DNA of 64,000 nucleotides from a virus. Under the pieces are notes generated by a model that was not told the origin of the DNA, did no database searches, and worked only from the letters and a program-made list of their open reading frames with translations. Positions within the stretch are counted from its first letter, which is position 1. Each line of letters starts with the position of its first letter. Shown piece after piece: positions 12,416 through 37,453 of the stretch. The translations under genes were made by a program, and so were the position numbers. The stretch is from positions 1 to 64,000 of IMG/VR virus record IMGVR_UViG_3300010397_000003; one strand, 5' to 3'.

Positions 12416-12420
12416 TCTTT

Positions 12421-12580
12421 CTTTGCGAACGAAAAAGTGAGCGGTCGTCCTTGCTGCAAGGTCGTCAGGGAATGCCCTGCTGGCTTCAAAACTTCTGATT
12501 CATCTGTGCGCGACCATAGGTAGTACTCCGGGGTCCGTTTCTATCTTGTTATCTGGGCTCGCTTTCCGCTCGCGCGATTC
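12421..12580. repeat. Intergenic composite repeat, two copies back to back
   Basis: The gap 12416-12600 has no gene. It holds one plus-oriented copy (about 12421-12490, with GTGAGCGGTCGTC and GGGAATGCCCTGCTGG) and one minus-oriented copy (about 12500-12575, minus strand GCGAGCGGAAAGCGAGCC, then CCTATGGTCGC). Related copies sit near 4093, 17165, 20640, 24680, 29150, 29808 and 35574. Confidence 0.6.
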
Positions 12581-13423: not shown

Positions 13424-13488
13424 TTACCCTCGCGCGGAACGCGCTCACGATCTCCCAAAGCACCGAGCCTCTTAAATCACCCGTGGTT

Positions 13489-17156: not shown

Positions 17157-17582
17157 TCACCTGATTCCTTTTTGTGCGACCATAGGGCATTCCACGGCGT
17201 TCGTTACGTTATGGGTGCGTGGCTCGCTTTCCGCTCGCTCAGTCAGCGTTACGTAACCAAGTTTCTCTTCTTCTTTTTCGAGCCAGTCTGCAATATCGGC
17301 GCGCGACCAGCGGTGGCTATCGTTTAAGTGAATGATTACGTCAGTCATGTCCACGGCATCTTCGTCTTGGCATTGACTAACCGGACAAGTTGAAGGCTCT
17401 TTGAGGTAGGGGTATTCTAATTCAGGAACCGCAGCGCTAACGCCTTCCAGACCGCCTGTCATTGCTTCATAGCCCGCGCCTATCGCGCACGTGCTTCCAT
17501 CGCGGTACATCTGGCGAAAGGACTGCGGCCGGAGCTTCGCCCCTTCTCGAATAGCCTCACTGAACGATGCGAATAGTTTCAT
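17157..17582 (-). CDS. Hypothetical protein, 141 aa, with repeat-derived C-terminal tail
   Basis: Residues 1-110 are a natural helical domain (LFASFSEAIREGAKL, STCAIGAGYEA). The last ~27 residues are encoded by a copy of the dispersed composite repeat; the tail resembles that of the protein at 29637 (both contain PR, then a NAV/DAV and PM). The leader has a perfect mini-hairpin and AGAGG. Confidence 0.6.
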   Translation of the reverse strand: MKLFASFSEAIREGAKLRPQSFRQMYRDGSTCAIGAGYEAMTGGLEGVSAAVPELEYPYLKEPSTCPVSQCQDEDAVDMTDVIIHLNDSHRWSRADIADWLEKEEEKLGYVTLTERAESEPRTHNVTNAVECPMVAQKGIR

Positions 17583-17596
17583 TGCGCTTTACCTCT

Positions 17597-17612
17597 GGCC
17601 GGTTTACCGGCC
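17597..17612 (-). promoter_or_regulatory. Pre-RBS hairpin, GTRAAC class
   Basis: GGCCGGTAAACCGGCC, a perfect 7-bp stem around AA, followed on the minus strand by AGAGG and the ATG at 17582. Upstream lies ACGTCAACGATTCG, shared with the leader at 20557. Confidence 0.6.
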
Positions 17613-17680
17613 CACGAATCGTTGACGTAACGAACGTCTTTAGTTGCCCTATGGCTTCACACTTCAAAAGTTCTGAGAAC

Positions 17681-20231: not shown

Positions 20232-20543
20232 TTAGAACGCCGTCGCAGCTTTGGGATTTGTGATATGCCCGATCCCGCTTTCCGGCTTGACTTCATCTGC
20301 GAATAGCGGCCTGAACCATGCTTGCGGGCACTCCGCGTCGATGTACTCAAGGCCGTGGCGTTTGACCGTCAACCAGAGAACGCCAAGCATTTGCGGCGGG
20401 TAGCCGTTCGCGTTATCGCTCCACTGCTGCGCCATTGATTCGTTCTCCGGCGCGGCCTTGACTCGCTCGACAACCGCATCAACTTGAGCCGGAAACATGC
20501 CGCAGTTCGTTAGCCGTTCGCGCATTACCTGTTCAAAGGTCAT
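20232..20543 (-). CDS. Conserved phage protein, 103 aa
   Basis: Matches a common small phage protein pattern: MTFEQVMRERLTNCGMF, AVVERVKAAPEN, then YPPQMLGVLW and ECPQAWFRPLF. Function not established. Its leader has the mini-hairpin at 20557. Confidence 0.65.
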   Translation of the reverse strand: MTFEQVMRERLTNCGMFPAQVDAVVERVKAAPENESMAQQWSDNANGYPPQMLGVLWLTVKRHGLEYIDAECPQAWFRPLFADEVKPESGIGHITNPKAATAF

Positions 20544-20556
20544 CTGCTTTACTCTC

Positions 20557-20568
20557 GCGGTTTACCGC
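20557..20568 (-). promoter_or_regulatory. Pre-RBS hairpin, GTRAAC class
   Basis: Minus strand GCGGTAAACCGC followed by GAGAGTAAAGCAG and the ATG at 20543. Same layout and same upstream ACGTCAACGA block as the leader at 17597, with a shorter but still perfect stem. Confidence 0.6.
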
Positions 20569-20584
20569 TTCGATTCGTTGACGT

Positions 20585-20705
20585 GTCGGACGCCTTGAGA
20601 ACTACCTTGGGCCTCAATCCCTGAATCCTATTTGTCAAAGCCTCGGGCATTCATGGACGCCCGTTTCTATCTGGGTGCGTGGCTCACTTTTTCGCTCGCT
20701 CAAGC
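20585..20705. repeat. Composite repeat copies between 20543 and 20700
   Basis: No gene in 20569-20699. A plus-oriented motif (GGACGCCTTGAGAACTACC, 20587-20605) and a minus-oriented copy (GAGCGAGCGAAAAAGTGAGCC, shortened here to its core, then GTCCATGAATGCCC) lie head to head. The stop codon of the Ala-rich gene overlaps the repeat. Confidence 0.5.
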
Positions 20706-21455
20706 CGCTTTCTTTTGCCTTGGAGCGAGGTCTAACCACTTACTTCCCGGCGTTTTGAATTTGATGCAGGCTTGGACGCAGATTTCAGCGGCGATATTCA
20801 GGATTTCATCGCGGGCTTTAGCTCGCGCATAAGCAGCAGCAGCATCAGCAGCATAAGCAGCAGCATCAGCAGCATAAGCAGCAGCATCAGCAGCATCAGC
20901 AGCAGCAGCATCAGCAGCATAAGCAGCAGCATCAGCAGCATAAGCAGCAGCAGCAGCATAAGCAGCATAAGCAGCACGGCACGCCTTACGGGCGTTTTCG
21001 GCGGCCTCTCGCGTGCCCTCGTTCTCGCAGCGGAGCGCGGCTTCGACAATGGCTCCAGCGTGAATTTTATCTTTGAATCTCAGCGCGGTAGCGCGAAGCG
21101 TGACGGGAAGAATCTGGCGAATCACTTGCTCCGCGAGGTGCATCACGAACTCTTTACGGAGTTGGCGATTCTCAGGCAGGTCAAGGAACTCGCTTCCAAG
21201 TTGAGCGATCGCCGCGCGTCTCATCCCTGCGGTTCGGGCCGCATTACTTGACCACGCTGCATCGTTGATTCGGATTTTGTATCGCCGGATGCAATTCGCT
21301 ACGCACTCCGGCTGATCGCCGTGCGGTAATTCGAGCGCATAGCAGATGGCCGCTTCAACGCACATCTTTCCCGGCTTCGCGACGCCTAAGCCGGACACAA
21401 GACCAGCATCCACGACCCCTAAAACCTTCCGCGCATGGTTTTTGGTTAGCTTCAC
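20700..21455 (-). CDS. Ala-rich repeat protein, 251 aa
   Basis: GTG start after GAAGGAGAAAGACG and a GCCGC hairpin; a longer in-frame start is less likely. Residues about 1-150 are a natural globular part (KVLGVVDAGLVSGLG, GDQPECVANCIRRY). Then ~50 residues of AAYAADAAA-type repeats written in GCA/GCT/TAT/GAT-like codons, and a C-terminal helix (EILNIAAEICVQACIKF). Related phage proteins with this Ala/Asp/Tyr repeat exist; function unknown. The repeat is a DNA microsatellite likely to vary in length. Confidence 0.7.
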   Translation of the reverse strand: MKLTKNHARKVLGVVDAGLVSGLGVAKPGKMCVEAAICYALELPHGDQPECVANCIRRYKIRINDAAWSSNAARTAGMRRAAIAQLGSEFLDLPENRQLRKEFVMHLAEQVIRQILPVTLRATALRFKDKIHAGAIVEAALRCENEGTREAAENARKACRAAYAAYAAAAAYAADAAAYAADAAAADAADAAAYAADAAAYAADAAAAYARAKARDEILNIAAEICVQACIKFKTPGSKWLDLAPRQKKAA

Positions 21456-21469
21456 CGTCTTTCTCCTTC

Positions 21470-21482
21470 GCCGCAAGGCGGC
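21470..21482 (-). promoter_or_regulatory. Pre-RBS hairpin, GCCGC class
   Basis: Minus strand GCCGC-CTT-GCGGC followed by GAAGGAG and the GTG at 21455. The identical 13-mer precedes the Nudix gene at 27301. Confidence 0.6.
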
Positions 21483-21514
21483 CCCACACTCTTTACTAAA
21501 ACGGGCGTCTTGAT

Positions 21515-21739
21515 TCACCCTTTGGCTTCAGCCCTGCGGTTCGTGCGGTGTTTTAGGTATTCGCTAGCCCTGAACAGTCCCGCGATTCCTGACGCGATCT
21601 GCTTCCGGTAATTCTTGAAAGAGAACGCCGGAGCCTGACCGGGTTTACGCTGTTTGTTGTCGCCGTACCTGTTACACCGAGTCCCGACAAACATTTCAGA
21701 CTGGTTCCGCTTGATGTTTCTGATTGATGTTCCGTTCAT
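21515..21739 (-). CDS. Hypothetical basic protein, 74 aa
   Basis: GAGGGAAAAATC precedes the ATG. Basic, Asn/Arg-rich, no domain recognised. The gap to the RHH gene (21740-21929) holds only a weak GGCTGC/GCAGCC hairpin near 21890-21913. Confidence 0.5.
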   Translation of the reverse strand: MNGTSIRNIKRNQSEMFVGTRCNRYGDNKQRKPGQAPAFSFKNYRKQIASGIAGLFRASEYLKHRTNRRAEAKG

Positions 21740-22769: not shown

Positions 22770-23270
22770 ATGAAGCACCTATACATCGGAATGCAAGAAC
22801 AGCGGCGGGTGAGGGACTTTTTGTTTCGCCACCTGCACCTGCTCGGACGCGACGAGCAAAACATTCTTGTTCTGAGGTATGGCGTGATCAAGGTGGGGCG
22901 TGTTGGCTGGGGCGAGGTGGCGGCGCTTTTGGGCATTCAGCCTGTTGAACGTGTCCATCAACACCACGCCGCCGCGCTTAAGAAAATCGTAAGACTTTCC
23001 CGCGAAGATATTCCGCCGTCGCTGCGTTGGGACTCAGAAAACGAATATGCGCAGCAAAAGCGTCGCGCCCGTAGACTGCTCATCGCTGCCATTAATACAG
23101 GACGAGTAGAGCGAAAACCGTGTGAAAAGTGCGGCAATCCCAAGTCTGAGGGCCACCACCCTGACTATTCCAAAGCCTTAGAAGTTGTCTGGCTATGCCA
23201 TGCCGATCACGCGGTCGAACACGCAAGGTTGCGGAATAAGTTAAAGCAGTCACAACTCAAAGCAGCCTAG
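22770..23270 (+). CDS. Sigma-region-4-like HTH fused to HNH-type zinc domain
   Basis: 166 residues. Residues about 20-75 resemble sigma region 4 or a LuxR-type HTH (RDEQNILVLRYGVIKVGRV, then GEVAALLGIQPVERVHQHHAAALKKI). Residues about 112-155 are the zinc module seen in phage HNH-like proteins: CEKCG, GHHPDYSKALEVVWLC and a final H-x4-H. No complete HNH catalytic site is obvious. First strongly promoted gene of the right arm; may be a transcription factor that activates it. Confidence 0.65.
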   Translation: MKHLYIGMQEQRRVRDFLFRHLHLLGRDEQNILVLRYGVIKVGRVGWGEVAALLGIQPVERVHQHHAAALKKIVRLSREDIPPSLRWDSENEYAQQKRRARRLLIAAINTGRVERKPCEKCGNPKSEGHHPDYSKALEVVWLCHADHAVEHARLRNKLKQSQLKAA

Positions 23271-23824: not shown

Positions 23825-23976
23825 ACGCCACCCAAACACAACCCGAACCAATCAAGACCTTTATCTGTGGATGTAGAGAAGATGAACCGTGCTTCGATCA
23901 TAAACTGAAAGATTCTGAGTGTGAGACCACAGGGAGTCTTGTGGGGTTCGTTTTAATGAAGATTAGAAGCACGTAA
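23821..23976 (+). CDS. Small Cys-containing protein, 51 aa
   Basis: ATGA overlap with the upstream stop. Contains FICGCRED and later CFDH, ECE, a possible zinc site. Its stop codon sits in the hairpin that precedes the next gene. Confidence 0.5.
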   Translation: MNATQTQPEPIKTFICGCREDEPCFDHKLKDSECETTGSLVGFVLMKIRST

Positions 23977-23982
23977 ACGTGC
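23969..23982 (+). promoter_or_regulatory. Pre-RBS hairpin, GTRAAC class
   Basis: GCACGTAAACGTGC, perfect 6-bp stem, followed by GAGGGGGAAGCG and the ATG at 23995. Confidence 0.6.
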
Positions 23983-23994
23983 GAGGGGGAAGCG

Positions 23995-24705
23995 ATGATC
24001 GAAATCAAAAACAGGTACACGGGCGCAGTCATTGTCCGCGATGGTGAGGCTGAGACGCTACGAGATGCGGTGATTCGATTCGTCGCAAACGAGCGAGCAG
24101 CGGAGCGCTCTGCCGACTTGAGCTCTGCCGACTTGCGCTCTGCCGACTTGCGCTCTGCCAACTTGCGCTCTGCCAACTTGCGCTCTGCCAACTTGCGCTC
24201 TGCCAACTTGAGCTCTGCCAACTTGCGCTATGCCGACTTGCGCTCTGCCAACTTGCGCTCTGCCAACTTGCGCTATGCCGACTTGCGCTCTGCCAACTTG
24301 CGCTCTGCCAACTTGAGCTCTGCCGACTTGAGCTCTGCCGACTTGAGCTCTGCCGACTTGCGCTCTGCCAACTTGCCATCCCCAACCGCCGTTCTGCTGG
24401 CGACGTGGGGTGATTTATCGCCGCAACTTGTCGCTGATCTAATGGTGTTCGACGCGGCTAACCATCCCAACCCTGAAGCGTTCGACGCTTGGGCCAAAGG
24501 CGGTTCGTGTCCCTATAGCGGCGTTCGCGTTCAGAGGGCCGCAAATTTCACAGAAGACGCAAGGGAGTGGGGCAAAGGCGTATCGTGTCGCCCCTATGAT
24601 TTGATGGTGCGGGTACTGGCTGAGAAGTGTCCCGAATGGTCAGAAGAGAGGATCGCGGAATTCACCAAGAGGTTTGAAGCGAGCGATAGCTCGCCACGCA
24701 ACTAA
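23995..24705 (+). CDS. Pentapeptide-repeat protein
   Basis: 236 residues. Residues about 39-129 are some 18 tandem A(D/N)LRS/A(D/N)LSS pentapeptides, which would form a right-handed quadrilateral beta helix that can mimic DNA. The C-terminal ~105 residues carry WGDLSPQLVADLMVFDAAN, HPNPEAFDAWA and GGSCPY, a conserved companion domain. DNA mimicry against host enzymes is possible but unproved. The DNA repeat is nearly perfect 15-mers. Confidence 0.8.
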   Translation: MIEIKNRYTGAVIVRDGEAETLRDAVIRFVANERAAERSADLSSADLRSADLRSANLRSANLRSANLRSANLSSANLRYADLRSANLRSANLRYADLRSANLRSANLSSADLSSADLSSADLRSANLPSPTAVLLATWGDLSPQLVADLMVFDAANHPNPEAFDAWAKGGSCPYSGVRVQRAANFTEDAREWGKGVSCRPYDLMVRVLAEKCPEWSEERIAEFTKRFEASDSSPRN

Positions 24706-24750
24706 GCCAAACACGGACGCCTTGAGTCGCCCTATGGCTGCACATAAAGA
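24679..24750 (+). repeat. Composite repeat copy
   Basis: GCGAGC-GATA-GCTCGC hairpin (24679-24694), then ACGGACGCC and GCCCTATGGCTGCACA (24728-24743). It overlaps the end of the pentapeptide gene and forms the leader of the Lar-like gene. Confidence 0.6.
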
Positions 24751-25605: not shown

Positions 25606-25820
25606 TAGCCGAGATAGCAGTCAGCGAAGTGAATCTAGATGTTGACTGGATTCCCTGTGAGAAGTGTCACCGCACTGGATGGCTTGACTATGAGGTTGAC
25701 TACTTTGGTCGTAAGACAGAACCAGGAAGATGTAATGCGCTAGGGTGCGAGGCGGGAATGGTGGCTCAAAGCCAAGGGCATTCAGCGACGACCGTTAATC
25801 ACAGAATGTTGGGCGCGTGA
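25602..25820 (+). CDS. Small zinc-finger-like protein, 72 aa
   Basis: WIPCEKCHRTGWLDYEV and RCNALGCEAG give a C-x2-C...C-x4-C site of DnaJ type. Coupled to the upstream gene. The stop TGA lies in the loop of the next leader hairpin. Confidence 0.55.
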   Translation: MIAEIAVSEVNLDVDWIPCEKCHRTGWLDYEVDYFGRKTEPGRCNALGCEAGMVAQSQGHSATTVNHRMLGA

Positions 25821-25826
25821 ACGCGC
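25813..25826 (+). promoter_or_regulatory. Pre-RBS hairpin, GTRAAC class
   Basis: GCGCGTGAACGCGC, perfect 6-bp stem around GA, followed by an AAAAGGGAAAGC ribosome site and an ATG at 25848. Confidence 0.55.
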
Positions 25827-25847
25827 TAGGCAAAGAAAAGGGAAAGC

Positions 25848-26178
25848 ATGAGCCGATACGTGTCTCCTAACAATCTCAAGCCGTCACCATTGTCTTGTGC
25901 GGCGACTTAGAAGCGATTTGGGATTGGCGTTATCAGAAAGCGACGAGAACTATGCGCTCTATGGTTGCGCAGCGGGTCGTAATCAGAAATCGGCGGGAGC
26001 GTGGGCTTGGGAGTTGTATGTGCGACAGCGCGGCGAGTGGCGACCAATGGGGATCGGTTCGTGCGACCCTGCGAGTTCGATGCGCAAGCAAAGCACTCTA
26101 ACGAGTTTTACCAATCACGGGGATTGCGAGGTTTGTATCGAACAACCGCGAACAGGGAAGAAGGCAACACGAACCTAG
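25848..26178 (+). pseudogene. Probable frameshifted small gene
   Basis: The hairpin and ribosome site lead to ATG 25848, but this frame stops after 20 codons (25910). The frame from GTG 25897 then stays open for 93 codons with protein-like content (ALSESDENYALYGCAAG, WAWELYVRQRGEWRPMG) but has no ribosome site. A single indel near 25890 would join them. It may instead be a 93-aa gene with a poor start. It ends KATRT, like the gene at 33470. Confidence 0.45.
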
Positions 26179-26240
26179 ACCGCGTAAGCGGCAACAACCG
26201 TGACCTGTGGGGTTGAGTTTTGTTGCAGCATTAACAGAAA
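26164..26240 (+). ncRNA. Structured dispersed element, copy 1
   Basis: Begins with GCAACACGAACCTAGACCG, identical to copy 2 at 34070. It has a CCGC-GTAA-GCGG tetraloop hairpin, then GCAACAA (26191-26197) pairing with TTGTTGC (26220-26226). Three of five aligned inner pairs change compensatorily in copy 2. It contains the stop of the upstream ORF and precedes the gene at 26303. Confidence 0.6.
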
Positions 26241-26302
26241 GATTTTCGTGTTTGTAGACAGAAAGATTTTGTTTGAGGGTTGAAGTAAGAGAGGCGGCTT
26301 AG

Positions 26303-26635
26303 ATGAAAAAGCGAATCAAGAAACTTTGGGTTGATGCGTTGCGGAGCGGTGAGTTTCAACAGTGCGAAAGGACGCTGCGTAAAGGCGGCGGTAAAAATGT
26401 TGAGTATTGCTGTCTCGGCGTGCTTGAACAGATTCGTGTTCAAGAAACAGGCGACCGCTTTACTCGCGGTAAGGGCTCCTATGCCGGATTGCTTTCTGAG
26501 AAAACTCAAGCGTGGGCCGGATTATCGACATCCGATCCGGTGTTAATGCCGTTGCGGAAAAAGACCGCCTCGGATCTTAACGATGACGGCAAGACCTTCG
26601 CAGAAATCGCAGATCGAATCGAGAAGTATCTGTAA
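26303..26635 (+). CDS. Conserved phage protein, 110 aa
   Basis: Typical of a common phage/environmental family: WVDALRSGEFQQCERTLR, YCCLGVLEQI, then AGLLSEKTQAWAGL and DLNDDGKTFAEIADRIEK. No known function. Preceded by GAGAGGCGGCTTAG. Confidence 0.7.
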   Translation: MKKRIKKLWVDALRSGEFQQCERTLRKGGGKNVEYCCLGVLEQIRVQETGDRFTRGKGSYAGLLSEKTQAWAGLSTSDPVLMPLRKKTASDLNDDGKTFAEIADRIEKYL

Positions 26636-26652
26636 GAAACGGAGAACCAATC

Positions 26653-26823
26653 ATGCCGCTAACACTTGATGAAGTAATCGACGCCTTAACGCTCGCTCGC
26701 GATGCGGTCAATGGCGTTGACGGACTTACGCCCGTCGATGTTTGGATGGGCGATGATGTCGCAACGATTCGAGAGATTGCTTCCGACATGAATGGCGTCT
26801 CGATTTATCTGGATGCCGATTAG
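26653..26823 (+). CDS. Hypothetical protein, 56 aa
   Basis: GGAG seven bases upstream. Begins MPLTLDEVIDALTLARD and has a WMGDDVATI strand and an acidic end; a compact alpha/beta shape, repeated in many phages as small acidic orphans. Confidence 0.55.
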   Translation: MPLTLDEVIDALTLARDAVNGVDGLTPVDVWMGDDVATIREIASDMNGVSIYLDAD

Positions 26824-26831
26824 GAGAACCT

Positions 26832-27077
26832 ATGAGTACGCCAGTCAAAACACTTCCATTCCCGCAACGCCAGATCGTCCCTATCGCCCCGGGGGAATTT
26901 TCAATTCAACAACTGACCATGATCCGTGAAGCAATCCTCTGTGTCGTTGACGAAGGAAACCGAGACGGCTTGGTCTGGATGCTGGATACCGAGGACGAAG
27001 ATCGAGCGAACCAGGATCGTCTCGACTTTTGTGACGCGGTGCAATCGTATTTAGTGGATCGAACGGTGAAGTTGTGA
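26832..27077 (+). CDS. Hypothetical protein, 81 aa
   Basis: GGAGAACCT precedes the ATG. Helical acidic protein (LTMIREAILCVVDEGN, DRLDFCDAVQSYLVD). No family. Confidence 0.55.
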   Translation: MSTPVKTLPFPQRQIVPIAPGEFSIQQLTMIREAILCVVDEGNRDGLVWMLDTEDEDRANQDRLDFCDAVQSYLVDRTVKL

Positions 27078-27098
27078 TCGTGGAGTGGAAGTAGACAG

Positions 27099-27224
27099 AT
27101 GTACGAATGCGCAACCATTGGATGCACTAATCGCGTGTCGCACCCCGACCAGTTATGCGTGACGTGTTCTGATGACGATCAGCCTTGGGACGATGACTAC
27201 GATCCTGATGATGAAGGTTGGTAG
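27099..27224 (+). CDS. Small acidic Cys protein, 41 aa
   Basis: MYECATIGCTN and LCVTCSD form a C-x4-C...C-x2-C site; the rest is Asp-rich (DDDQPWDDDYDPDD). Likely a zinc knuckle with an acidic tail. Confidence 0.5.
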   Translation: MYECATIGCTNRVSHPDQLCVTCSDDDQPWDDDYDPDDEGW

Positions 27225-27272
27225 ATGAAGCCCAACGGAGGATCGCGGCGTTCGTTAATTCAATGATCGTGA

Positions 27273-27285
27273 GCCGCCTTGCGGC
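27273..27285 (+). promoter_or_regulatory. Pre-RBS hairpin, GCCGC class
   Basis: GCCGC-CTT-GCGGC followed by AAAAGGAAAAGCAAA and the Nudix ATG at 27301. Identical 13-mer to the minus-strand hairpin at 21470. Confidence 0.6.
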
Positions 27286-27300
27286 AAAAGGAAAAGCAAA

Positions 27301-27768
27301 ATGAGCGAGAAATGTGAAATCGGCGCGCACTACGTTGTTGGATTCATGTTCAGCGCAGACCTTCGGTTTGTTCTATTAGTGCTAAAGAATCGTCCTGACT
27401 GGCAGCGCGGAAAGCTTAACGGCGTTGGCGGTAAGGTTGAAGAAAACGAGTCACCGGATCAAGCGATGAGCCGTGAGTTCTTAGAAGAGGCCGCGATTGA
27501 CACCGAGGACTGGCTGCGCTTCGCAACGCTTGGTGATGATCGTGGATGGATCATTCATTTCTATTACGCGAAGGGCGACATCAACAAGGCAAAAACCGTG
27601 ACCGACGAATCACTGATGATGTTTCCGCTCTGGAAGGTGTCGAGTGATACGACGCTAATTCCCAACCTTACGTGGCTGATTCCAATGGCTCTAAGTATGC
27701 AGAAAGAGCGCTGCGATTACTTTCAAATTACCGAGCAGCAAATATTTGAGCCACGAACGCAGGATTAA
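27301..27768 (+). CDS. Nudix hydrolase
   Basis: 155 residues with a full Nudix box at about 44-66: GKVEEN-E-SPDQAMS-REFLEEAAI, giving the G-x5-E-x7-R-E-x2-E-E pattern. These enzymes hydrolyse nucleoside diphosphates linked to another moiety (for example oxidised dNTPs or NAD derivatives) with Mg. Substrate cannot be told. Phage Nudix enzymes may clean the nucleotide pool or affect NAD and mRNA caps. Confidence 0.85.
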   Translation: MSEKCEIGAHYVVGFMFSADLRFVLLVLKNRPDWQRGKLNGVGGKVEENESPDQAMSREFLEEAAIDTEDWLRFATLGDDRGWIIHFYYAKGDINKAKTVTDESLMMFPLWKVSSDTTLIPNLTWLIPMALSMQKERCDYFQITEQQIFEPRTQD

Positions 27769-27807
27769 CTGACGCCGCCGAATGCCCTTTGGTTGCAGAA
27801 AAAGAAA

Positions 27808-28158
27808 ATGCCGAAACGAATTCAACGGAGCCGCAAGAAGGGATCGCGATTGCCCTACGGGACAGTTTGCCTAACGCGGCCCGGCCCCTATGGAAATCCT
27901 TTCAGAGTTGGGATGTGGTTTCGCAAGATCACCTCGGACTGGAAAGTGTGGACAAGGGGTAACAGTCCTGCGTTTGGCAATCAGCAAGTTCGCGATTTAG
28001 AGCATTCGCTGGAATTGTTTGACGAGTACGCAGAATGTCGTATCAAGTGGCAGCCTGATTGGCTCAACCCGATTCTCGACAAAGACTTCTGGGCGTGCTG
28101 GTGCCCGCTCACTTCCAAGTGCCACGTTGACACTTACCTCAGACTGGCGAACCAATGA
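27808..28158 (+). CDS. DUF4326-like protein
   Basis: 116 residues from the ATG at 27808 (a TTG lies 15 bases upstream). It shows the family order: PKRIQRSRKKG, RPGPYGNPFRVG, then LFDEYAECRI and DFWACWCPLTSKCHVDTYL. The CWCPL-x3-CH-x-D end may bind metal. Function unknown; common in phages. Leader contains GAATGCCCTTTGG of the dispersed motif. Confidence 0.75.
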   Translation: MPKRIQRSRKKGSRLPYGTVCLTRPGPYGNPFRVGMWFRKITSDWKVWTRGNSPAFGNQQVRDLEHSLELFDEYAECRIKWQPDWLNPILDKDFWACWCPLTSKCHVDTYLRLANQ

Positions 28159-28718
28159 AACGATCACCCATAGGCCCAAAGACGTTTGCAGAAGCCCTAG
28201 AGAAGCGTCTAGCGCAGCCTCAGAAGCCGCGTAAGCGTGGTTATGAATGGAAACGTCCGCGCAAAGCTCTGGACTTCAAGGGAAGAAAGCGTCTCACGTC
28301 ACGCCGGCCGAACAAGGGCAAGACTGTAGATGGCGATTCGCCTAGGGCGATCAAGGACGAATGCGATCAACTTGTGCGGGACATTATCGCGTTGCGTGAT
28401 TGTTCCTGTGTCACATGCAACCGAGGGGATCGAGTACTTCATGTGGGCCACTTGTTCAGGCGCGGCCTTGAATCTGTCCGCTGGAATCTCTTGAACTGTA
28501 ACGCGCAGTGCGACCCATGCAACGTGATTCATGAAACAGAACCGCTTCACTATCAAATGTGGTTCAGATTCGTTTACGGCAACGTAGCTTATGACGTGTT
28601 GGAAATCGCAAGCCGAAGCAAGCACAAATTCAAGTACATCGAACTAGGCGAGATCCGCGACGGGTTGCGAGCGGAACTGAAGCGATACGAAGCAGCGCAG
28701 AAAGCGAGAGCAGCATAG
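28155..28718 (+). CDS. ninG: NinG/Rap-like recombination protein
   Basis: 187 residues. Basic N-terminus, then a zinc-binding region CSCVTCNRGDRVLHVGHLF and QCDPCN-x-H, with a helical C-terminus. This is the lambda NinG (Rap) pattern; Rap is a structure-specific Holliday-junction endonuclease that supports recombination. Overlaps the upstream gene by four bases. Assignment by motif order only. Confidence 0.7.
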   Translation: MKRSPIGPKTFAEALEKRLAQPQKPRKRGYEWKRPRKALDFKGRKRLTSRRPNKGKTVDGDSPRAIKDECDQLVRDIIALRDCSCVTCNRGDRVLHVGHLFRRGLESVRWNLLNCNAQCDPCNVIHETEPLHYQMWFRFVYGNVAYDVLEIASRSKHKFKYIELGEIRDGLRAELKRYEAAQKARAA

Positions 28719-29078
28719 ATGGATAGAGATATCGTCAACACACACGATCAGTTGCGCGCGGCCGGTGGCGGGGTTGCTATCGTCCCGACATATACAGGCA
28801 CTCGAACTCAATATCCCTACGGTTGGGGTATCTATCGAATGGGTGCCGACGGAAAACAGATCGTCACTGATTCAAAAGCGCATTGGGCTGATTACGGCAA
28901 GAAGATATTCTCGCACAACAGGCACAAAGGGACGCCCGCCGAATGTAAGCGGCTATCGCTTGAAGAAGCAAAGCGGTGGGTTGCCGAGCAGGGATGGTAT
29001 GACGGCGAATGGAAACGCAACCGAATGCGCGACTATGTTCCGGCTGAAATTAACAAGAGGTTTCCACTTTCCAAATGA
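28719..29078 (+). CDS. Hypothetical protein, 119 aa
   Basis: Follows NinG without gap. Contains PYGWGIYRMGADGKQIV and a Trp-rich C-terminal helix (EEAKRWVAEQGWYDGEW). No family recognised. Confidence 0.55.
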   Translation: MDRDIVNTHDQLRAAGGGVAIVPTYTGTRTQYPYGWGIYRMGADGKQIVTDSKAHWADYGKKIFSHNRHKGTPAECKRLSLEEAKRWVAEQGWYDGEWKRNRMRDYVPAEINKRFPLSK

Positions 29079-29215
29079 CGGCAGTTTGCAGCGCGTGTTA
29101 CCGGCGGAACTCGCTGTTTCGAGTCCCAACCGAAAAGAAACGAAGCGAACGGAAGTGAGCCGGACAAGTGAGATCGACTGACGCCCGTGAATGCCCTTGG
29201 GTTTCAAAACAGAAA

Positions 29216-29362
29216 ATGATTTGCGCAGATTTGAATGTTGAAGCCACGGAAGACTTAGGGGATGAAATGAAAAACTTAGACTTTGCGATTTTCTTTGTTG
29301 GTTCGATTTGGGCGATCGCTTGGGCTATTGTCCGCGTCGTTCAGACTCGAAGCAAGATGTAG
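29216..29362 (+). CDS. Small membrane protein, 48 aa
   Basis: Start chosen by analogy with the 27808 leader: the same GAATGCCCTTGGG motif and CAGAAA precede the ATG. A shorter start at 29267 has GGGG upstream. Residues about 22-42 form one transmembrane helix (AIFFVGSIWAIAWAIVRVV). 29079-29215 holds a composite-repeat copy (about 29150-29205). Confidence 0.5.
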   Translation: MICADLNVEATEDLGDEMKNLDFAIFFVGSIWAIAWAIVRVVQTRSKM

Positions 29363-29414
29363 GGGATCGAAACCAAAGGGAGTCTAACGACGCCCGTATC
29401 TTGAAAGTTTGTGG

Positions 29415-29427
29415 GCCGCTCTGCGGC
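29415..29427 (+). promoter_or_regulatory. Pre-RBS hairpin, GCCGC class
   Basis: GCCGC-TCT-GCGGC directly followed by GAGGGGAGAAG and the ATG at 29439. Confidence 0.6.
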
Positions 29428-29438
29428 GAGGGGAGAAG

Positions 29439-29636
29439 ATGGCGCTAGATTGCAAAACTGTTTATTACGACGGCGGCAGCATGGTCGTTGGCTGTGGTTC
29501 GCAGCCTTGCAAATGCGGACATCTAGCCGCGTTGTTTGAAGAGGATCATGAGGCGATCTTCGCCGAACTGGAAGCGGAACTAGCGAAGCCGTTACCCGCT
29601 GATTACGTGCCAAGTGGCCAAGAGTGGTGGGACTGA
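29439..29636 (+). CDS. Hypothetical Cys-rich acidic protein, 65 aa
   Basis: MVVGCGSQPCKCGH gives three close Cys and a His, followed by an acidic helix (EEDHEAIFAELEAEL). Adjacent to the next gene with no gap. Confidence 0.55.
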   Translation: MALDCKTVYYDGGSMVVGCGSQPCKCGHLAALFEEDHEAIFAELEAELAKPLPADYVPSGQEWWD

Positions 29637-29879
29637 ATGGCGACCAAAACACCCAAACATCTCAAGCTATCGAAAACAATGCTGGCGCAGATTGCCGCCT
29701 ATGCTCAGGACTGCGAAGAGGCCGGATGGTACTACGGAAATAGGGCCGAGTTCTGGAAACGCCACAAGGCGATTAAGGCGTGGCTCAAGCAGGAAATCTC
29801 CGCGCGAGCGAAAAGCTCGCCACGAATCCACGCTAAAACGGACGCCGTGATCGGCCCTATGGCTTCGATCAAAGAATGA
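29637..29879 (+). CDS. Hypothetical protein, paralogue of the gene at 3776
   Basis: 80 residues; residues 8-50 match the protein at 3776 (TMLAQIAAYAQDCEEAGWYY, then FWKRHKAIKAWLKQE). The last ~25 residues are encoded by a copy of the dispersed repeat, and the resulting peptide resembles the tail of the protein at 17157. The core probably is the functional unit. Confidence 0.65.
   Translation: MATKTPKHLKLSKTMLAQIAAYAQDCEEAGWYYGNRAEFWKRHKAIKAWLKQEISARAKSSPRIHAKTDAVIGPMASIKE
29808..29870 (+). repeat. Composite repeat copy inside a gene end
   Basis: GCGAGC-GAAAA-GCTCGC hairpin, then ACGGACGCC and GGCCCTATGGCTTC. Here it is translated as the C-terminus of the upstream protein and lies 40-100 bases before the gene at 29913. 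Confidence 0.55.
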
Positions 29880-29912
29880 TTTGAGGAATGATTTGAGAGG
29901 AGAGCTAAGAGA

Positions 29913-30140
29913 ATGGCTGAGATTCAACTTACAGTGACGGAACATGATGCCATTCGGCAACTTCAAGCCCTAGCGCAAGCGTGGCCGTCATCACTGTGGC
30001 TATTCTCCGCAAGCGGCTCGCTTCATGTTATGCGCAAAGTGAACGGCAAGCGAATGATGAACAAGCATGATGGCGGGATCGACGCCGATTACGTGGTTGA
30101 GACAATCAAAGGCATCGACAACGACGGAGGTGACTGGTAG
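29913..30140 (+). CDS. Hypothetical protein, 75 aa
   Basis: GAGAGGAGAGCTAAGAGA precedes the ATG. Beta-rich centre (SSLWLFSASGSLHVMRK) and acidic end. Unknown. Confidence 0.55.
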   Translation: MAEIQLTVTEHDAIRQLQALAQAWPSSLWLFSASGSLHVMRKVNGKRMMNKHDGGIDADYVVETIKGIDNDGGDW

Positions 30141-30142
30141 CA

Positions 30143-30490
30143 ATGCCTGACAAATCCACCACAGATAAAGACCGCAAACGAGCCGAGACGCAAATACGTG
30201 TAGCAGCCGCAGAAATGTACGACTTGTTGCCGCTTGGTGTCTACGAACGTGTAATCAAGCGCATGGCTGAGGCCGCCACTACCTTTGCATCTGAAGTACG
30301 AGCAGAACAAAAGATTCCGTCGTGCGCAATCTGCGGCGGCGGTCGCGTGTCGATTCGTGGTCGATTCCCACGCGATCCACAACGCGAGGTCTGCCCGACC
30401 TGCGTCACTGAGAGGCTTGAGCAGATTCACGAAATCGCAAGCATGGAATATGGTGCTGCCGCTGCGATTCGTAACGAGGTAGAACCATGA
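30143..30490 (+). CDS. Hypothetical protein with zinc-ribbon, 115 aa
   Basis: Helical N-terminal half; CAICGGG and VCPTCV (C-x2-C...C-x2-C) in residues about 68-95. Overlaps the next start by four bases. Confidence 0.55.
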   Translation: MPDKSTTDKDRKRAETQIRVAAAEMYDLLPLGVYERVIKRMAEAATTFASEVRAEQKIPSCAICGGGRVSIRGRFPRDPQREVCPTCVTERLEQIHEIASMEYGAAAAIRNEVEP

Positions 30491-30963
30491 CAGTAAAACA
30501 AGTTCCAGCGAAGTACCAAGCATCGGACGGCGTAGAGTTCGACAACGAAGAGGAAGCCAAACTTCATGACGAACTGATTACGGCGCGGAAAGAATACGAT
30601 GAGGCCCGAGGCAAGTTCAGCCGCGCCGTGGCTGCAACTCAAAAGACGGCGGACGGGGAGCTGTTCGATTTTAGAGGTGGCGAGTTTTGGTACGTCACCG
30701 ACTATTACAATCAAGAGCCGCGGTTGAAGCGCGTTTACTTTCTCGGTTGGAATTTTGAGGTAACCGAGTACGGCGACCGCGTTGAAATTAGCCAGGACGA
30801 AACGGACGGTAACAACCGTCAACAGCGTCACTCCTACCCGATAAACAAACTCTACACAACTAAACGACGAGCATCTGAGGCGCTTGTTGGCGCTCTTGAA
30901 TCGTGGGCAAACGAAGTGCGTCGGACTGTTACCGAAACACAGGACGAATTGAGACGATCATGA
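30487..30963 (+). CDS. Hypothetical protein, 158 aa
   Basis: N-terminal YQASDGVEFDNEEEAKLHD followed by a charged helix, then a beta-rich part with aromatic residues (FWYVTDYYN, RVYFLGWNF) and a C-terminal helix. Recurrent style of phage early orphan; no function. Confidence 0.55.
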   Translation: MTVKQVPAKYQASDGVEFDNEEEAKLHDELITARKEYDEARGKFSRAVAATQKTADGELFDFRGGEFWYVTDYYNQEPRLKRVYFLGWNFEVTEYGDRVEISQDETDGNNRQQRHSYPINKLYTTKRRASEALVGALESWANEVRRTVTETQDELRRS

Positions 30964-31208
30964 CTGACAGCAAAGCTAAATCAAAATCAGAAGTAGCACG
31001 TAACATTGCCCGTACTTATTCTGAGGCCGCGCTGATCCCATTGTGTGCCAGTCAAATTGAACTAGCGATTGCTAATGCAGAGTCTCAACTGGCTGAAGAG
31101 GTGCTGAGAGAGATTGCCAGTTTAGAGGAACGAACTGCTTATGCTGTTTATGTTGGCAAACGGCTGCGCGAGTTATTCGCCAAGTTGAATGTGAAGGTGG
31201 AGGGGTAG
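30960..31208 (+). CDS. Hypothetical helical protein, 82 aa
   Basis: ATGA overlap with the upstream stop marks the start. Helices with IELAIANAESQLAEEVLREI and a C-terminal LRELFAKLNVKVEG. Unknown. Confidence 0.55.
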   Translation: MTDSKAKSKSEVARNIARTYSEAALIPLCASQIELAIANAESQLAEEVLREIASLEERTAYAVYVGKRLRELFAKLNVKVEG

Positions 31209-31211
31209 AAG

Positions 31212-31502
31212 ATGATCGTTGAAACAACGCAGAAGGTTGATCCAGAAGTCGCCAGCGACATGCTAAATGGGCTGGCGCGGCTTGATGGGTTTATTTGCGG
31301 CTACGTCCGAATAGATGCCAAGCAGTTCACGTTGGTCACTCTCATTCAATGCAAAGACGGCGACGTGGGGCGCGGGCAGCGTGAAGTGCGATACGTCGAA
31401 GGCCGCGAAGGCGCAAACGACTACCGCAACGCCAAACGGTTTCAGGATGAAGTCAACGAACCGCCCGCACCGTGGCAAGGCAACTTTATCGAGGTTTTGT
31501 GA
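31212..31502 (+). CDS. Hypothetical protein, 96 aa
   Basis: GGAGGGGTAGAAG precedes the ATG. Alpha/beta small protein (DMLNGLARLDGFICGYVRID). Unknown function. Confidence 0.5.
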   Translation: MIVETTQKVDPEVASDMLNGLARLDGFICGYVRIDAKQFTLVTLIQCKDGDVGRGQREVRYVEGREGANDYRNAKRFQDEVNEPPAPWQGNFIEVL

Positions 31503-31523
31503 GCGCAACATATTTACTTCTGT

Positions 31524-31916
31524 ATGACCATTATGAGCCAGAACCTTCTAAAAAACTCTAAGCAAGGGAGTCAAGTATATAATTCCCTTATTTTAAGTAA
31601 TCCACGCCAAGAGATACGCCTTTTCAGGAAGCCGGATTGGGCATTCAAAGGCGATATATCGACCTTCAAGACTAACCGTTGGGCAGAAATGATCACAGGT
31701 AGCAAACACTACCGCCGCCATTGGGACGATGATGATTTTGATGCACTGATAGCTCTGTCATTCACAGATAACGGGCGGTTCTTGTGTGAGTGCGGCAGAT
31801 TCTTTGACGAGCCGTTTGGCGCTTCAAATCACGGTATTTGGCAAATGCACTGCCCGCACTGCGGAGGTAGAAGTTATAAAGAACCCGAGGGAGTTAAAGA
31901 TGCGCGAACAGACTAG
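31524..31916 (+). CDS. Zinc-ribbon protein, 130 aa
   Basis: The C-terminal third has FLCECGRFF and HCPHCGGRS, a C-x-C/C-x2-C ribbon; N-terminal part basic and aromatic. Its first 25 codons contain GTCAAGTATATAATT, a copy of a recurring promoter-like motif. Overlaps the next gene by 17 bases. Confidence 0.5.
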   Translation: MTIMSQNLLKNSKQGSQVYNSLILSNPRQEIRLFRKPDWAFKGDISTFKTNRWAEMITGSKHYRRHWDDDDFDALIALSFTDNGRFLCECGRFFDEPFGASNHGIWQMHCPHCGGRSYKEPEGVKDARTD

Positions 31917-32733
31917 TGAGCCAGCCAAGAGATCGTGCCGAGAGTGTGGGGAGCGAAGCTGGCATTTAGTCGAATGCCCACTGAATACGGAAGGCGCGAG
32001 TCGTCTCTATGTCTCAGACTCTGAGCGCGTCCCTGAACCAGTACCCAACCGGCACGCTTTCCAAGAGCCGGGAGGCGGCCTTGTTGGTTGTTTCAAAGCT
32101 CACCGTGGTCAACCAAAGGATGCAACGGTTCACGCTGCACCACAGAAAGACGAAGCCGAGAGTTTAGGAGTTGAGGCGCAGAAGGTTTACACACAACCTT
32201 TTTTGCGGGCTGCTACACGAATTGTGAAAATATTTCTTTCGCCTCCCGCAGACGAGCGGGCGATTAAGAGCGTCGCGGCCATAATGGAGCAGGAATGGAA
32301 CCGAGCAGCGCCCACCTCAGCCCAGAAGTTAGGTTGTGCCGCTCACGGATTCAAGTTTCGAGAAGGCTGCGATGCTTGTGAATCAACTGCCTCAGCCCCA
32401 GCAGGGCCGGAACTCAAGCAAGTGGTTCAGAAGTTTTTAGATGATGAATGGTGCGGTGTATTGAATGAATATCAGCGCCGCCACATCGCTAAGGAAATCG
32501 AATTCCAATGGGAGTTAGCTAAACTTCGTGCCACCCATGCACCAACAGAGCCAAGTGTAGAGCCAACGATTCGAGTCAGAGCGCAGTGGTTCATTGACCA
32601 CGAGAAGGATCAACACCTTGACCATGCCTGCTTTGAGTGTACAGGCGACGAAGCTACGAAGCGTCACGGATTCACTTGCTACTTTCATCAGGCGGTGGCT
32701 GCTGTCCGTGAGCATTTCCAAAAAGGAGAATAA
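31900..32733 (+). CDS. Hypothetical protein with Cys motifs, 277 aa
   Basis: GAGGGAGTTAAAG precedes the ATG at 31900; a longer in-frame reading is rejected. Cys/His groups at the N-terminus (SCRECGERSWHLVECPLN), the middle (GCAAHGFKFREGCDAC) and the end (HACFECTGDEA, FTCYFH). Looks like a mosaic of small zinc modules. No catalytic motif recognised. Confidence 0.5.
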   Translation: MREQTSEPAKRSCRECGERSWHLVECPLNTEGASRLYVSDSERVPEPVPNRHAFQEPGGGLVGCFKAHRGQPKDATVHAAPQKDEAESLGVEAQKVYTQPFLRAATRIVKIFLSPPADERAIKSVAAIMEQEWNRAAPTSAQKLGCAAHGFKFREGCDACESTASAPAGPELKQVVQKFLDDEWCGVLNEYQRRHIAKEIEFQWELAKLRATHAPTEPSVEPTIRVRAQWFIDHEKDQHLDHACFECTGDEATKRHGFTCYFHQAVAAVREHFQKGE

Positions 32734-32737
32734 GTAA

Positions 32738-32830
32738 ATGTCAGGACTGTGGAGAAACGATTCAGAGACGCCAGAAGGCAAGTATCCGATTGTGCCGCGG
32801 CGGGACGGGAGGAGTCACAACTATGAATGA
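32738..32830 (+). CDS. Truncated small phage protein, 30 aa
   Basis: AAGGAGAATAAGTAA precedes the ATG. It begins LWRNDSETPEGKYPIVPRRD, the start of a known phage family that is normally 60-90 residues long, and then stops early, probably after an indel. Could still produce a short peptide. Confidence 0.45.
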   Translation: MSGLWRNDSETPEGKYPIVPRRDGRSHNYE

Positions 32831-33038
32831 GTCACCCACACCGCCAGAGCGAATCACGTCGCCCGTACCTGATGAACTGTGCCCGCACGTGGAATTAGGA
32901 GAAGAGATGGCTGGCGGTTTTGTCTTTGATGCCGAGAGTCCAAAAGTAAGCGTTGGCATGTGCGAGGTTTGTTTGGCGATCTGCCGCGCTGAATTCATTA
33001 CCGCTGAACCGTTCAGCCTGTACAGGAGAGAGCAATGA
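32823..33038 (+). CDS. Hypothetical protein, 71 aa
   Basis: GGAGGAGTCACAACT precedes the ATG. Contains ELCPHVELG and MCEVCLAIC, a probable zinc site. Overlaps both neighbours by a few bases. Confidence 0.5.
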   Translation: MNESPTPPERITSPVPDELCPHVELGEEMAGGFVFDAESPKVSVGMCEVCLAICRAEFITAEPFSLYRREQ

Positions 33039-33409
33039 GCGAGGACTTTGACAAACTAAAAGCGCGTAAAGACATGCTAGTTCAACGCGAACGAGAAACC
33101 GTCCGCTCCGTCTCTCCTGATGCTGACACGTTAGCCTATTGTGGCTGTGGTGATGGGTTTACGACTACAAATCCAGGTACGTGTGTTAACTGTCTCGCAT
33201 CGCTTACCGCTCCTGATGCTGGAGAGGTAGCGCGGAGAGCGGCAGAGAAGATTTGGGAGAAGTTTCGAGTTTACGATCCCGGTGCAGCAATTAACGAGAT
33301 GCAGATCGACATCTTTGCGGGCATCATTCAATCCGAACTCGCCAACGTCGGTACTCCCGATGCAGATGAGCCGCAGGATTCAGGAACCGCAACCAAAGGT
33401 CATTCGTAG
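33035..33409 (+). CDS. Hypothetical protein, 124 aa
   Basis: N-terminal charged helix, CGCGDGFTTTNPGTCVNC zinc-like group in the middle, and a helical C-terminus (EVARRAAEKIWEKF). Unknown. Confidence 0.5.
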   Translation: MSEDFDKLKARKDMLVQRERETVRSVSPDADTLAYCGCGDGFTTTNPGTCVNCLASLTAPDAGEVARRAAEKIWEKFRVYDPGAAINEMQIDIFAGIIQSELANVGTPDADEPQDSGTATKGHS

Positions 33410-33467
33410 ACGACCGTTCAATTACCACGACCGCTCACTAGCGTTCGCAAAGAAAAGAGGGGAGTAG
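33366..33467 (+). CDS. Short basic ORF, 33 aa, doubtful
   Basis: ATG inside the end of the previous gene; basic peptide ending KKRGE just before the gene at 33470. Coding status uncertain. Confidence 0.25.
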   Translation: MSRRIQEPQPKVIRRRPFNYHDRSLAFAKKRGE

Positions 33468-33469
33468 CA

Positions 33470-34084
33470 ATGGAAAGCGCAATCAGGCAGGCCGGGTTGG
33501 TGGAGTTTCCGCCGTTCATGGGTGAAAGAATTTACATGCGAGAGTTTACGAAGCGCGACGGATTGCCGTCCGATCTCTTGCGCTGGCAGTTTACGATTGA
33601 TGCGATGCTTGCCGAGATCGAAACGGATGGGCCAATCTATCTGATGGTTGATCAGGGATTCGTTAACGCTGGGAATGTACATCGAAGAGGAGGCCCGCAT
33701 GTGGACGGTGCTTGGCATCCCGGCATCTCCGCGCACGGTAATCCTCGCCCGCATCACAACCCCATGCCTGAACCTCGACCCTACCCAAGACACAGCCTAA
33801 AACTCGGCGGACACGGGCATCGCTTTGACGGCTCGTCGGAGTTGATAGTTTTCGCGTCTGACGTGCTGGGGTGTCAAGCTTACGTCGGAAGCTACGACGG
33901 CACGCCAGCAGAAGACGGAGATTGTTCGCGCCTCGACCTTAGCCGCATGACCGTTATCAACATGGAGCCGGGGCGTGTGTGGACGGGAGACGCCTTCACG
34001 ACGATCCACGAATCCGTCCCAGTACAGCACGATTGCCTGCGGACAATGGTGCGCCTAAATGCGCCGAACGCAACACGAACCTAG
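33470..34084 (+). CDS. Putative 2-oxoglutarate/Fe(II) oxygenase-like protein
   Basis: 204 residues. GGPHVDGAWHPG offers an H-x-D pair, and GDAFTTIHESVPV followed by TMVRLNAP offers the distal His and Arg expected in 2OG/Fe(II) dioxygenases, with FASDVLGCQAYVGSY as a strand between. The spacing (about 100 residues from HxD to His) fits. This is inference from motif order; a cupin is the alternative. It ends NATRT in the structured element. Confidence 0.45.
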   Translation: MESAIRQAGLVEFPPFMGERIYMREFTKRDGLPSDLLRWQFTIDAMLAEIETDGPIYLMVDQGFVNAGNVHRRGGPHVDGAWHPGISAHGNPRPHHNPMPEPRPYPRHSLKLGGHGHRFDGSSELIVFASDVLGCQAYVGSYDGTPAEDGDCSRLDLSRMTVINMEPGRVWTGDAFTTIHESVPVQHDCLRTMVRLNAPNATRT

Positions 34085-34147
34085 ACCGTGCAAGCGTCGC
34101 TAACTCAGACCGTGGAATTGAGTTTTGCGACCACGTATTAACAGACC
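34070..34147 (+). ncRNA. Structured dispersed element, copy 2
   Basis: GCAACACGAACCTAGACCG as in copy 1, a CGT-GCAA-GCG hairpin with a GNRA loop, then GTCGC (34096-34100) pairing with GCGAC (34127-34131), and a common TTGAGTTTTG and ATTAACAGA. Pair changes relative to copy 1 keep the stem. It precedes the gene at 34182. Confidence 0.6.
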
Positions 34148-34181: not shown

Positions 34182-34451
34182 ATGAAAATAGAAATGACCT
34201 TTGACGGCGTTCGTGTTGACGGAACTTTGGACGGCAAAACCTTTGCTGTTGTGCGACGCGGCGCAGAAACAAGCCTCGAAGGAATCACGGGTGATGACAC
34301 GTTCGGCGGGATGGTCGGTTCTGCGATTCTTGACTTCGCCGGACATGTGCTTGACGGAGCCGTGATTATCATGGAAGCAACTGACGATTTGAAAGTCTGG
34401 GACAAATTGGACGACGATCTTGCGAACGAAGTTTACGACGCGATGATCTGA
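34182..34451 (+). CDS. Hypothetical protein, 89 aa
   Basis: AAGGAGAAACG precedes the ATG. Beta-rich first half (MTFDGVRVDGTLDGKTFAVV), helical second half. Unknown. Confidence 0.55.
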   Translation: MKIEMTFDGVRVDGTLDGKTFAVVRRGAETSLEGITGDDTFGGMVGSAILDFAGHVLDGAVIIMEATDDLKVWDKLDDDLANEVYDAMI

Positions 34452-36263: not shown

Positions 36264-36292
36264 TTGACATACCCAGACTGGTTTGGTAGCAT
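36264..36292 (+). promoter_or_regulatory. Promoter of the transposase gene
   Basis: TTGACA (36264-36269), a 17-base spacer and TAGCAT (36287-36292). Upstream is AATTATATAC, part of a motif found three times in the window. Confidence 0.6.
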
Positions 36293-36320
36293 GGTTTCGT
36301 TAAGGAAAGGCGCGAAACCG

Positions 36321-37346
36321 ATGAACCTAGCAGACCTAATGGAGCGATTCGCAACGGTAGAAGCTGCGAGAGAATATCTTGAGAAAGAGCGTTGGCCAGA
36401 AGGCCCGGAATGCCCGCACTGTGGGCTTGTGGGTGAAGCCTACAAGATAACTCCAAAGCCGCGCCACATACCGGACGAATACCAGACGAAGCGCGAAGTA
36501 GCTGCGCAAGCCAAACGAGTACGCAAACCGCGTCAAGGTCTCTGGAAGTGTAAAGACTGCCGTAAGCCGTTCACTGTTACCGTTGGCACTATCTTTGAAG
36601 ATTCACATATCCCGCTTAACAAGTGGGTGATCGCTGTTCATCTCATGTGCGCCAGCAAAAAAGGAATGAGTGCGCATCAGATTCACCGGATGCTCGGAGT
36701 GACTTACAAAACGGCGTGGTTTATGTGTCACCGCATCCGCTACGGAATGTCTCAAGAACCTCTGGCCTCGCAGCTTACGGGCGTTGTAGAGGCCGATGAA
36801 ACCTACGTTGGCGGTCGTCTGCGACATAAACAATCTACTCAGGTCAAACAAGGCGTGCGTGCACAGGATCGCGTTTCACCGTTTGACAATAAAGCCGCCG
36901 TCTTTTCAATCCTGCAACGTGACGGCCGCGTGCGCTCTACGCATATGGATCGCGTCACTGGCGAGAACCTGAAAGCCGCAATCAAGCAAGTCTGCGCGCC
37001 GGACGCGCATATCATCACGGACAATTATCCGGGCTACAAACGTCTCAAGAGTGAATTCAAACACTCTAGCGTCAATCACTCTGCCGGAGAATACGCACGC
37101 TGGGAAGATGGCGTCTGCATCACGACGAATTCAATCGAGGGTTTCTTTTCAATTCTCAAGCGCGGCATTAATGGAACGTATCATCACGTTTCCAAACAAC
37201 ATCTTCACCGCTATCTCTCAGAGTTTGATTTCAGATACAACGCCCGCAAGATGACTGATAGTGATCGCCGTGAAGCCGCGCTCAAGGGTTTCTCAGGCAA
37301 GCGGCTCATGCTTCACGATCCTATTGGCAAGACTGGCGAAAACTAA
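36321..37346 (+). CDS. IS1595-type transposase
   Basis: 341 residues from the ATG preceded by GGAAAGG; an upstream ATG at 36291 is possible. N-terminal zinc ribbon (CPHCG, then CKDC), an HTH (HQIHRMLGVTYKTAWFM), the catalytic core VVEADETYVGG, IITDNYPGYK and NSIEGFFSILKRG. This is the IS1595/ISXO2 DDE-type layout. No terminal inverted repeats or target duplication are visible in the flanks, so it may be a stranded or domesticated copy. Confidence 0.85.
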   Translation: MNLADLMERFATVEAAREYLEKERWPEGPECPHCGLVGEAYKITPKPRHIPDEYQTKREVAAQAKRVRKPRQGLWKCKDCRKPFTVTVGTIFEDSHIPLNKWVIAVHLMCASKKGMSAHQIHRMLGVTYKTAWFMCHRIRYGMSQEPLASQLTGVVEADETYVGGRLRHKQSTQVKQGVRAQDRVSPFDNKAAVFSILQRDGRVRSTHMDRVTGENLKAAIKQVCAPDAHIITDNYPGYKRLKSEFKHSSVNHSAGEYARWEDGVCITTNSIEGFFSILKRGINGTYHHVSKQHLHRYLSEFDFRYNARKMTDSDRREAALKGFSGKRLMLHDPIGKTGEN

Positions 37347-37366: not shown

Positions 37367-37453
37367 TGGTGGGGACGACGGGATTTGAACCCGCATGGTC
37401 GTGAGACCGAAAGTTTCCTAGGCTTGCGCGTTTACCAATTTCGCCACGTCCCC
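37367..37453 (-). tRNA. Class-II tRNA, Leu-like, with abnormal anticodon arm
   Basis: Minus-strand acceptor GGGGACG pairs with CGTCCCC, discriminator A and an encoded CCA. D arm GCG-AAATTGGTAAA-CGC, variable arm GGTC-TCAC-GACC, T arm GCGGG-TTCAAAT-CCCGT are regular and Leu-like. The anticodon region GCAAGCCTAGGAAACTTTC does not give five pairs around a 7-nt loop: a 9-nt loop CCTAGGAAA (UAG, Leu) or a poor 7-nt one (AGG) are the options. Function may be impaired. Confidence 0.75.

Follow-up and report, generated by a model that had tools for sequence, protein, structure and literature searches.

Accessory genes in the early gene clusters of this phage seem to be bracketed by repeated boundary elements of at least two kinds, one of which is element A with its two copies, A1 and A2. 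We give roughly even chances to the reading in which A1 and A2 serve as alternative 3′ boundaries of short gene cassettes, with joints that are probably maintained by recombination. Both copies are set in a wider system that a sequence-only reading of the same DNA had missed: 18 inverted boundary elements, here called C or B according to their orientation (Table 1).

Genome and gene clusters

The window, that is, the whole 64,000-nucleotide stretch analyzed, belongs to a virus record of 77,298 bases (G000). The first 123 bases of this record are identical to its last 123 bases in a self-BLAST comparison, which suggests a complete circular genome, and an integrase gene (10095-11186, minus strand) indicates that it is probably a temperate phage. 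Genes were called mechanically, as open reading frames (ORFs). Small ORFs form two divergent clusters, the left and right operons, which extend in opposite directions from a point near 22 kb; all tail-type proteins detected lie beyond 39 kb.

Several other features of the region deserve mention. An IS1595/ISXO2-type transposase gene (36264-37346, plus strand) adjoins a tRNA-Pro gene (37367-37453, minus strand), and the ORF at 23995-24705 contains internal repeats (24105-24397) that are about 88% identical by BLAST. A sub-threshold match to the Rfam family isrG is present at 20827-20972 on the minus strand (34.2 bits, where the family's gathering score is 100; E 2e-5). The protein encoded at 22770-23267 (plus strand) has a weak match, under the Pfam cut-off, to sigma-70 region 4; matches to this region are likewise present in the related contig G001 (see below). 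Such matches could bear on unusual phage promoters.

Element A at gene ends

Whole-genome self-BLAST aligns 26160-26238 with 34066-34145 (75% over 81 columns, E 3e-8), a similarity well beyond chance, confirming the earlier observation of two copies with the same first 19 bases. Conservation is block-wise, not uniform: identical blocks of 19, 10 and 9 bases (GCAACACGAACCTAGACCG, TTGAGTTTTG and ATTAACAGA) are set between divergent, poorly conserved stretches. G000 contains exactly two occurrences of the 16-mer ACACGAACCTAGACCG. As had also been noted, each copy begins within the end of an ORF, for which it provides an in-frame TAG (..ATRT, stop), and another ORF lies ahead. Translational bypass or readthrough at this TAG was rejected, because stops abound in the sequence after it, which is not coding-like. 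Neither copy has a promoter-like match to the sigma-70 consensus, which may not be that of the host, or a terminator-like site. Upstream of A1, the ATG best placed after the C element at 25764 (25848) is followed by a stop after only 20 codons, while a GTG-started ORF continues to A1; the region 25848-26178 is possibly a frameshifted gene or contains a sequencing error.

Searches with a profile and with a covariance model, both built from A1 and A2, recovered only one convincing further copy, a shortened one at 3250-3287 of G001, a 62-kb virus contig that is distantly related to G000 and has a handful of genes in common with it. This copy reads AACACGAACCTAGACCGCGCAAGCGG-CC-AACAGAAGGGAGAGAG-ATG; it comprises the 5′ block, a GNRA hairpin and AACAGA, leading directly into the ribosome-binding site, and lacks the TTGAGTTTTG block as well as the entire main stem discussed below. 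The 5′ block terminates three unrelated ORFs at A1, A2 and the G001 copy with the same in-frame TAG (..TRT, stop). In IMG/VR, ACACGAACCTAGACCG has two more matches, in G001 and in an otherwise dissimilar sequence (L002). A DNA-pattern search of viral contigs and of bacterial and archaeal genomes returned, beyond G001, chance-like matches in which the other blocks are missing, and no copies were found among INPHARED phages. The ORF before A2 (phrog_8970) and an 852-aa ORF, used as routes to relatives, led to no confirmed viral contig. When 4227 Rfam families were searched, neither A copy had a match at the gathering threshold (a tRNA was the sole passing match in the window) or a meaningful one at permissive thresholds; a known RNA family was rejected for A.

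A family of inverted boundary elements

BLAST within and between genomes, together with profile searches (nhmmer, cmsearch), identified 26 copies of a second element of ~75 nt in three phage contigs: 18 in the window (7411-33453), seven in G001 and one in another related contig, G002, those outside the window lying at loci L028, L030, L031 and L164. Its rough consensus is ARCCAWAGGGCATTC-NNN-GRCGNYCGTT-...-TCGTGGC-hairpin. C and B are opposite orientations of this single family. In the C orientation (11 copies in the window) the element lies just upstream of a gene start, its hairpin adjoining the ribosome-binding site; in the B orientation (seven copies) it lies at a gene 3′ end, its hairpin facing the gene. 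Watson-Crick stems of at least five pairs are found in 13 of 25 elements, against 0.93 expected by shuffling, and include at least six different sequences (GGCCGG/CCGGCC, GCCGC/GCGGC, GCGCG/CGCGC, GGCGC/GCGCC, GCGAGC/GCTCGC and others). Because these stems differ yet remain paired, the neighborhood does contain a repeated element of the sort that the sequence-only reading described, though not the one that it marked.

The C and B partners of one cassette are no more alike than non-partners, and the genes led by several left-operon C elements (20563, 12420 and 7411) are followed by neither B nor A. The family has no match in Rfam, and searches of INPHARED and, with one pattern, of species genomes gave only chance-like matches. 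Identity with integron attC sites, whose R boxes are RYYYAAC/GTTRRRY, was rejected because these boxes do not fit by eye. IS605-type ends were also rejected: although the window has a TnpB gene, the elements are not at its ends but dispersed along the sequence and inverted. No inverted pair of repeats was found flanking the transposase gene at 36264-37346, and IS1595 terminal repeats were rejected as well.

Table 1. Boundary elements and associated features in the window
Feature	Position	Strand	Context
Element A, copy 1 (A1)	26164-26240	+	3′ end of ORF 25897-26178; ahead of ORF 26303-26635
A1 conserved 5′ block and GNRA hairpin, CCGC-GUAA-GCGG	26165-26191	+	also kept in contig G001
Element A, copy 2 (A2)	34070-34147	+	3′ end of ORF 33470-34084; ahead of ORF 34182-34451
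A2 conserved 5′ block and hairpin, CGU-GCAA-GCG, three pairs	34071-34096	+	one base shared with proposed main stem
C element	33387-33453	+	right operon; directly upstream of gene ending in A2
B element	29802-29871	-	3′ end of ORF 29637-29879
C element	29367-29432	+	upstream of ORF starting at 29439
B element	29145-29210	-	right operon
B element	27738-27802	-	3′ end of ORF 27301-27768
C element	27225-27292	+	upstream of ORF 27301-27768 (NUDIX)
C element	25764-25834	+	right operon; upstream of gene ending in A1
B element	24679-24746	-	3′ end of ORF 23995-24705
C element	23920-23988	+	upstream of ORF 23995-24705; outside nhmmer seed, E 0.0012
C element	21463-21532	-	left operon
B element	20631-20702	+	3′ end of ORF 20700-21518
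C element	20563-20617	-	upstream of ORF 20232-20543
C element	17593-17661	-	upstream of ORF 17157-17582
B element	17170-17240	+	3′ end of ORF 17157-17582
C element	13422-13497	-	upstream of ORF 12818-13423; nhmmer only
B element	12506-12575	+	left operon
C element	12420-12490	-	upstream of ORF 12158-12415
C element	7411-7469	-	upstream of ORF 7072-7401
TnpB-like protein, OrfB_IS605 and Cas12f1-like TNB domains	5405-6454	-	left operon

Element A in the position of B

In the right operon, each of the five units led by C closes at B or A within one or two genes: C23920-B24679, C25764-A1, C27225-B27738, C29367-B29802 (two ORFs) and C33387-A2. In a placement simulation, for which 26-33 genes were assumed and the statistic was devised after the pattern was seen, an arrangement this tight arose in about 0.0003-0.001 of trials, and the chance that both A-ended genes would start with C was 0.02-0.03. 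Both A copies in the window close a gene that a C element opens (C25764 and C33387), and the short A of G001 (3250) likewise follows a C element, which lies two ORFs before it (2432). By inspection, the C elements of all three A-ended units carry GACGACCG, a variant that only a minority of C elements have. Since C-led units end at A, and all three A copies provide the in-frame TAG, A holds the position of B; we infer that it also does the job of B.

A might share more with B than position. It could belong to the C/B family as a much diverged member, a view compatible with its role as an alternative 3′ boundary, although we consider such kinship unlikely. The best pairwise alignments are found solely in the expected sense orientation, the position within the cassette is identical, and a profile-profile comparison using column shuffles gives a z of about 3.8 for the A pair and nothing on the reverse strand. 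However, neither nhmmer nor cmsearch detects a profile match between A1 or A2 and the C/B core (CCAAAGGG..GACGNCCG) with its hairpin, and the short A of G001 has no score in the column-shuffle test. Pairwise comparison of A with B is borderline against shuffles (p = 0.013 for A1 and 0.077 for A2) and non-significant against other genome windows, among which A1 ranks at 14% and A2 at 5%. Descent of A from B is not established by these sequence comparisons; the shuffle and column-shuffle tests lean towards it, while the profile searches and the genome-window null do not.

Folding of element A

The sequence-only reading saw in the two copies a main stem with three compensatory changes in five pairs, a claim that fails on alignment. 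The arms GCAAC/GTTGC in A1 and GTCGC/GCGAC in A2 are both present, each with a 26-base loop. In a MAFFT alignment the 5′ arm occupies columns 28-32 in one copy and 27-31 in the other, a shift of one column; scored on that alignment, four of the five positions are unpaired in A2 and there are zero double changes. An ungapped alignment has no shared stem. In a gapped one, with the gap shifted to favor the stem, a null model that re-deals the differing bases matches the stem quality in 6.2% of trials. RNAalifold, run on the pair, prefers other pairs to the stem. The minimum-energy fold of A1 is without the stem, which is present in the fold of trimmed A1; the best fold of A2 includes this same stem. 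Fold energies of the two copies are ordinary (z-scores of -1.21 and -1.12 against shuffles). A third copy with preserved pairing had been proposed as the deciding observation, and in the sole third copy the stem is deleted. The covariation claim is not carried, because two sequences are too few and the third contradicts it; more generally, apparent covariation between two copies may be a product of alignment choice.

The shared GNRA hairpin, also part of that reading, survives in its loop, which is kept in all three copies with GUAA/GCAA variation, but less well in its stem: the A2 hairpin has only three pairs, U-G included, competes with the main stem for one G (column 27), and is absent from the best fold of trimmed A2. 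Likewise, what stands of the suggested RNA structure of unlisted class is a repeated, uncatalogued element at two gene junctions, and not a structure attested by covariation. Evidence that A is a structured RNA is weak.

These results bear on the possibility that A is a structured cis-acting RNA, such as a leader, processing or antitermination site, in which the GNRA hairpin and a second stem would control the downstream gene. All three copies lie ahead of a same-strand ORF, and the persistent GNRA loop and the second stem in the best fold of A2 are consistent with such an RNA, as is ATTAACA, which may loosely resemble a boxA. We nevertheless judge it improbable, given a main stem that is missing from the G001 copy and misregistered between A1 and A2 (null about 6%), folding z-scores of about -1.2, the lack of an Rfam match, and an inconstant distance between A and the next start codon (roughly 10, 35 and 60 nt).

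Proposed exchange of genes at shared joints

Under the preferred reading of A as an alternative 3′ boundary, a typical cassette would open with C, immediately before the ribosome-binding site, continue with what is usually one gene and close with B or A, the first block of A supplying the stop codon of the gene. A, B and C are probably retained as shared-sequence joints, and homologous recombination between joints could allow accessory genes to be gained, lost or swapped while neighboring genes stay intact. In the transcript, the short hairpins may shield mRNA ends or separate adjoining genes. If so, early operons would take up accessory genes via conserved, oriented joints and not by random illegitimate recombination; the oriented C-B/A pairs make this testable by comparison of related phages. 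That single accessory genes enclosed by inverted ~75-nt hairpin elements (C...B/A) form, in this phage lineage, a cassette system in the full sense, in which each enclosed unit is recognized and then moved or exchanged whole and A and B can replace each other as the 3′ end, seems to us quite doubtful.

Element A might instead be an old duplicated gene end with its intergenic DNA, drifting and functionless, as would accord with finding no more than two complete copies and a partial one in the collections searched. This is quite unlikely, however, in view of the block-wise conservation of A and the preservation of its 5′ block in a distant phage with few genes in common. Very unlikely is a role for the 5′ block as a site of protein binding on DNA, such as an operator, positioned like the "stoperators" of some phage repressors: the block is short, identical and constant in orientation to transcription in three places, and CACGAACCTAGACCGTG in A2 has partial dyad symmetry, but the dyad is weaker in A1 and G001 (CGCG in place of CGTG), there are only two sites in 77 kb, and the conserved 3′ blocks would go unexplained.

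Comparison with known systems

We found no account of inverted elements bracketing genes in phages in the literature searched, which took in few subscription journals. A further comparison is with the put RNA antitermination sites of phage HK022: the genome of this temperate phage carries two of them, each of ~70 nt, in its early operons. A similarly has two copies in the ~70-nt range in early operons of a temperate phage; unlike put, both lie within a single operon, each after an unrelated gene, and conservation does not extend to the paired structure.

The C/B elements resemble the REP/BIME sequences of bacterial chromosomes (PMC2817692) in being intergenic and hairpin-forming, in occurring in both orientations with compensating stem changes, and in sometimes meeting head to head at a single junction (20631 and 20563). 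They differ in their length of about 75 nt, in a long conserved non-palindromic core, in an orientation tied to gene starts and ends, and in their 18 copies in a phage. No RAYT (Y1 tyrosine transposase) is among the Pfam matches listed for G000 and G001 (25 of 28 families for G001, and part of the ORFs).

In T4-type phages, intergenic promoter/stem-loop cassettes (promoter early stem-loops, PeSLs) have been tied to gene shuffling (Arbiol 2010; Comeau 2014, cited in PMC4503421). Compared with PeSLs as described there, the A copies are without a match to a sigma-70 promoter (a consensus that may not be the host's) or a terminator, the elements form inverted pairs around genes, and the phage encodes an integrase and, to the extent that this was tested, does not resemble T4. 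Both are short stem-loop repeats, intergenic, located in phage accessory regions and proposed to have a role in gene shuffling, and PeSLs are the nearest functional counterpart of the A, C and B elements.
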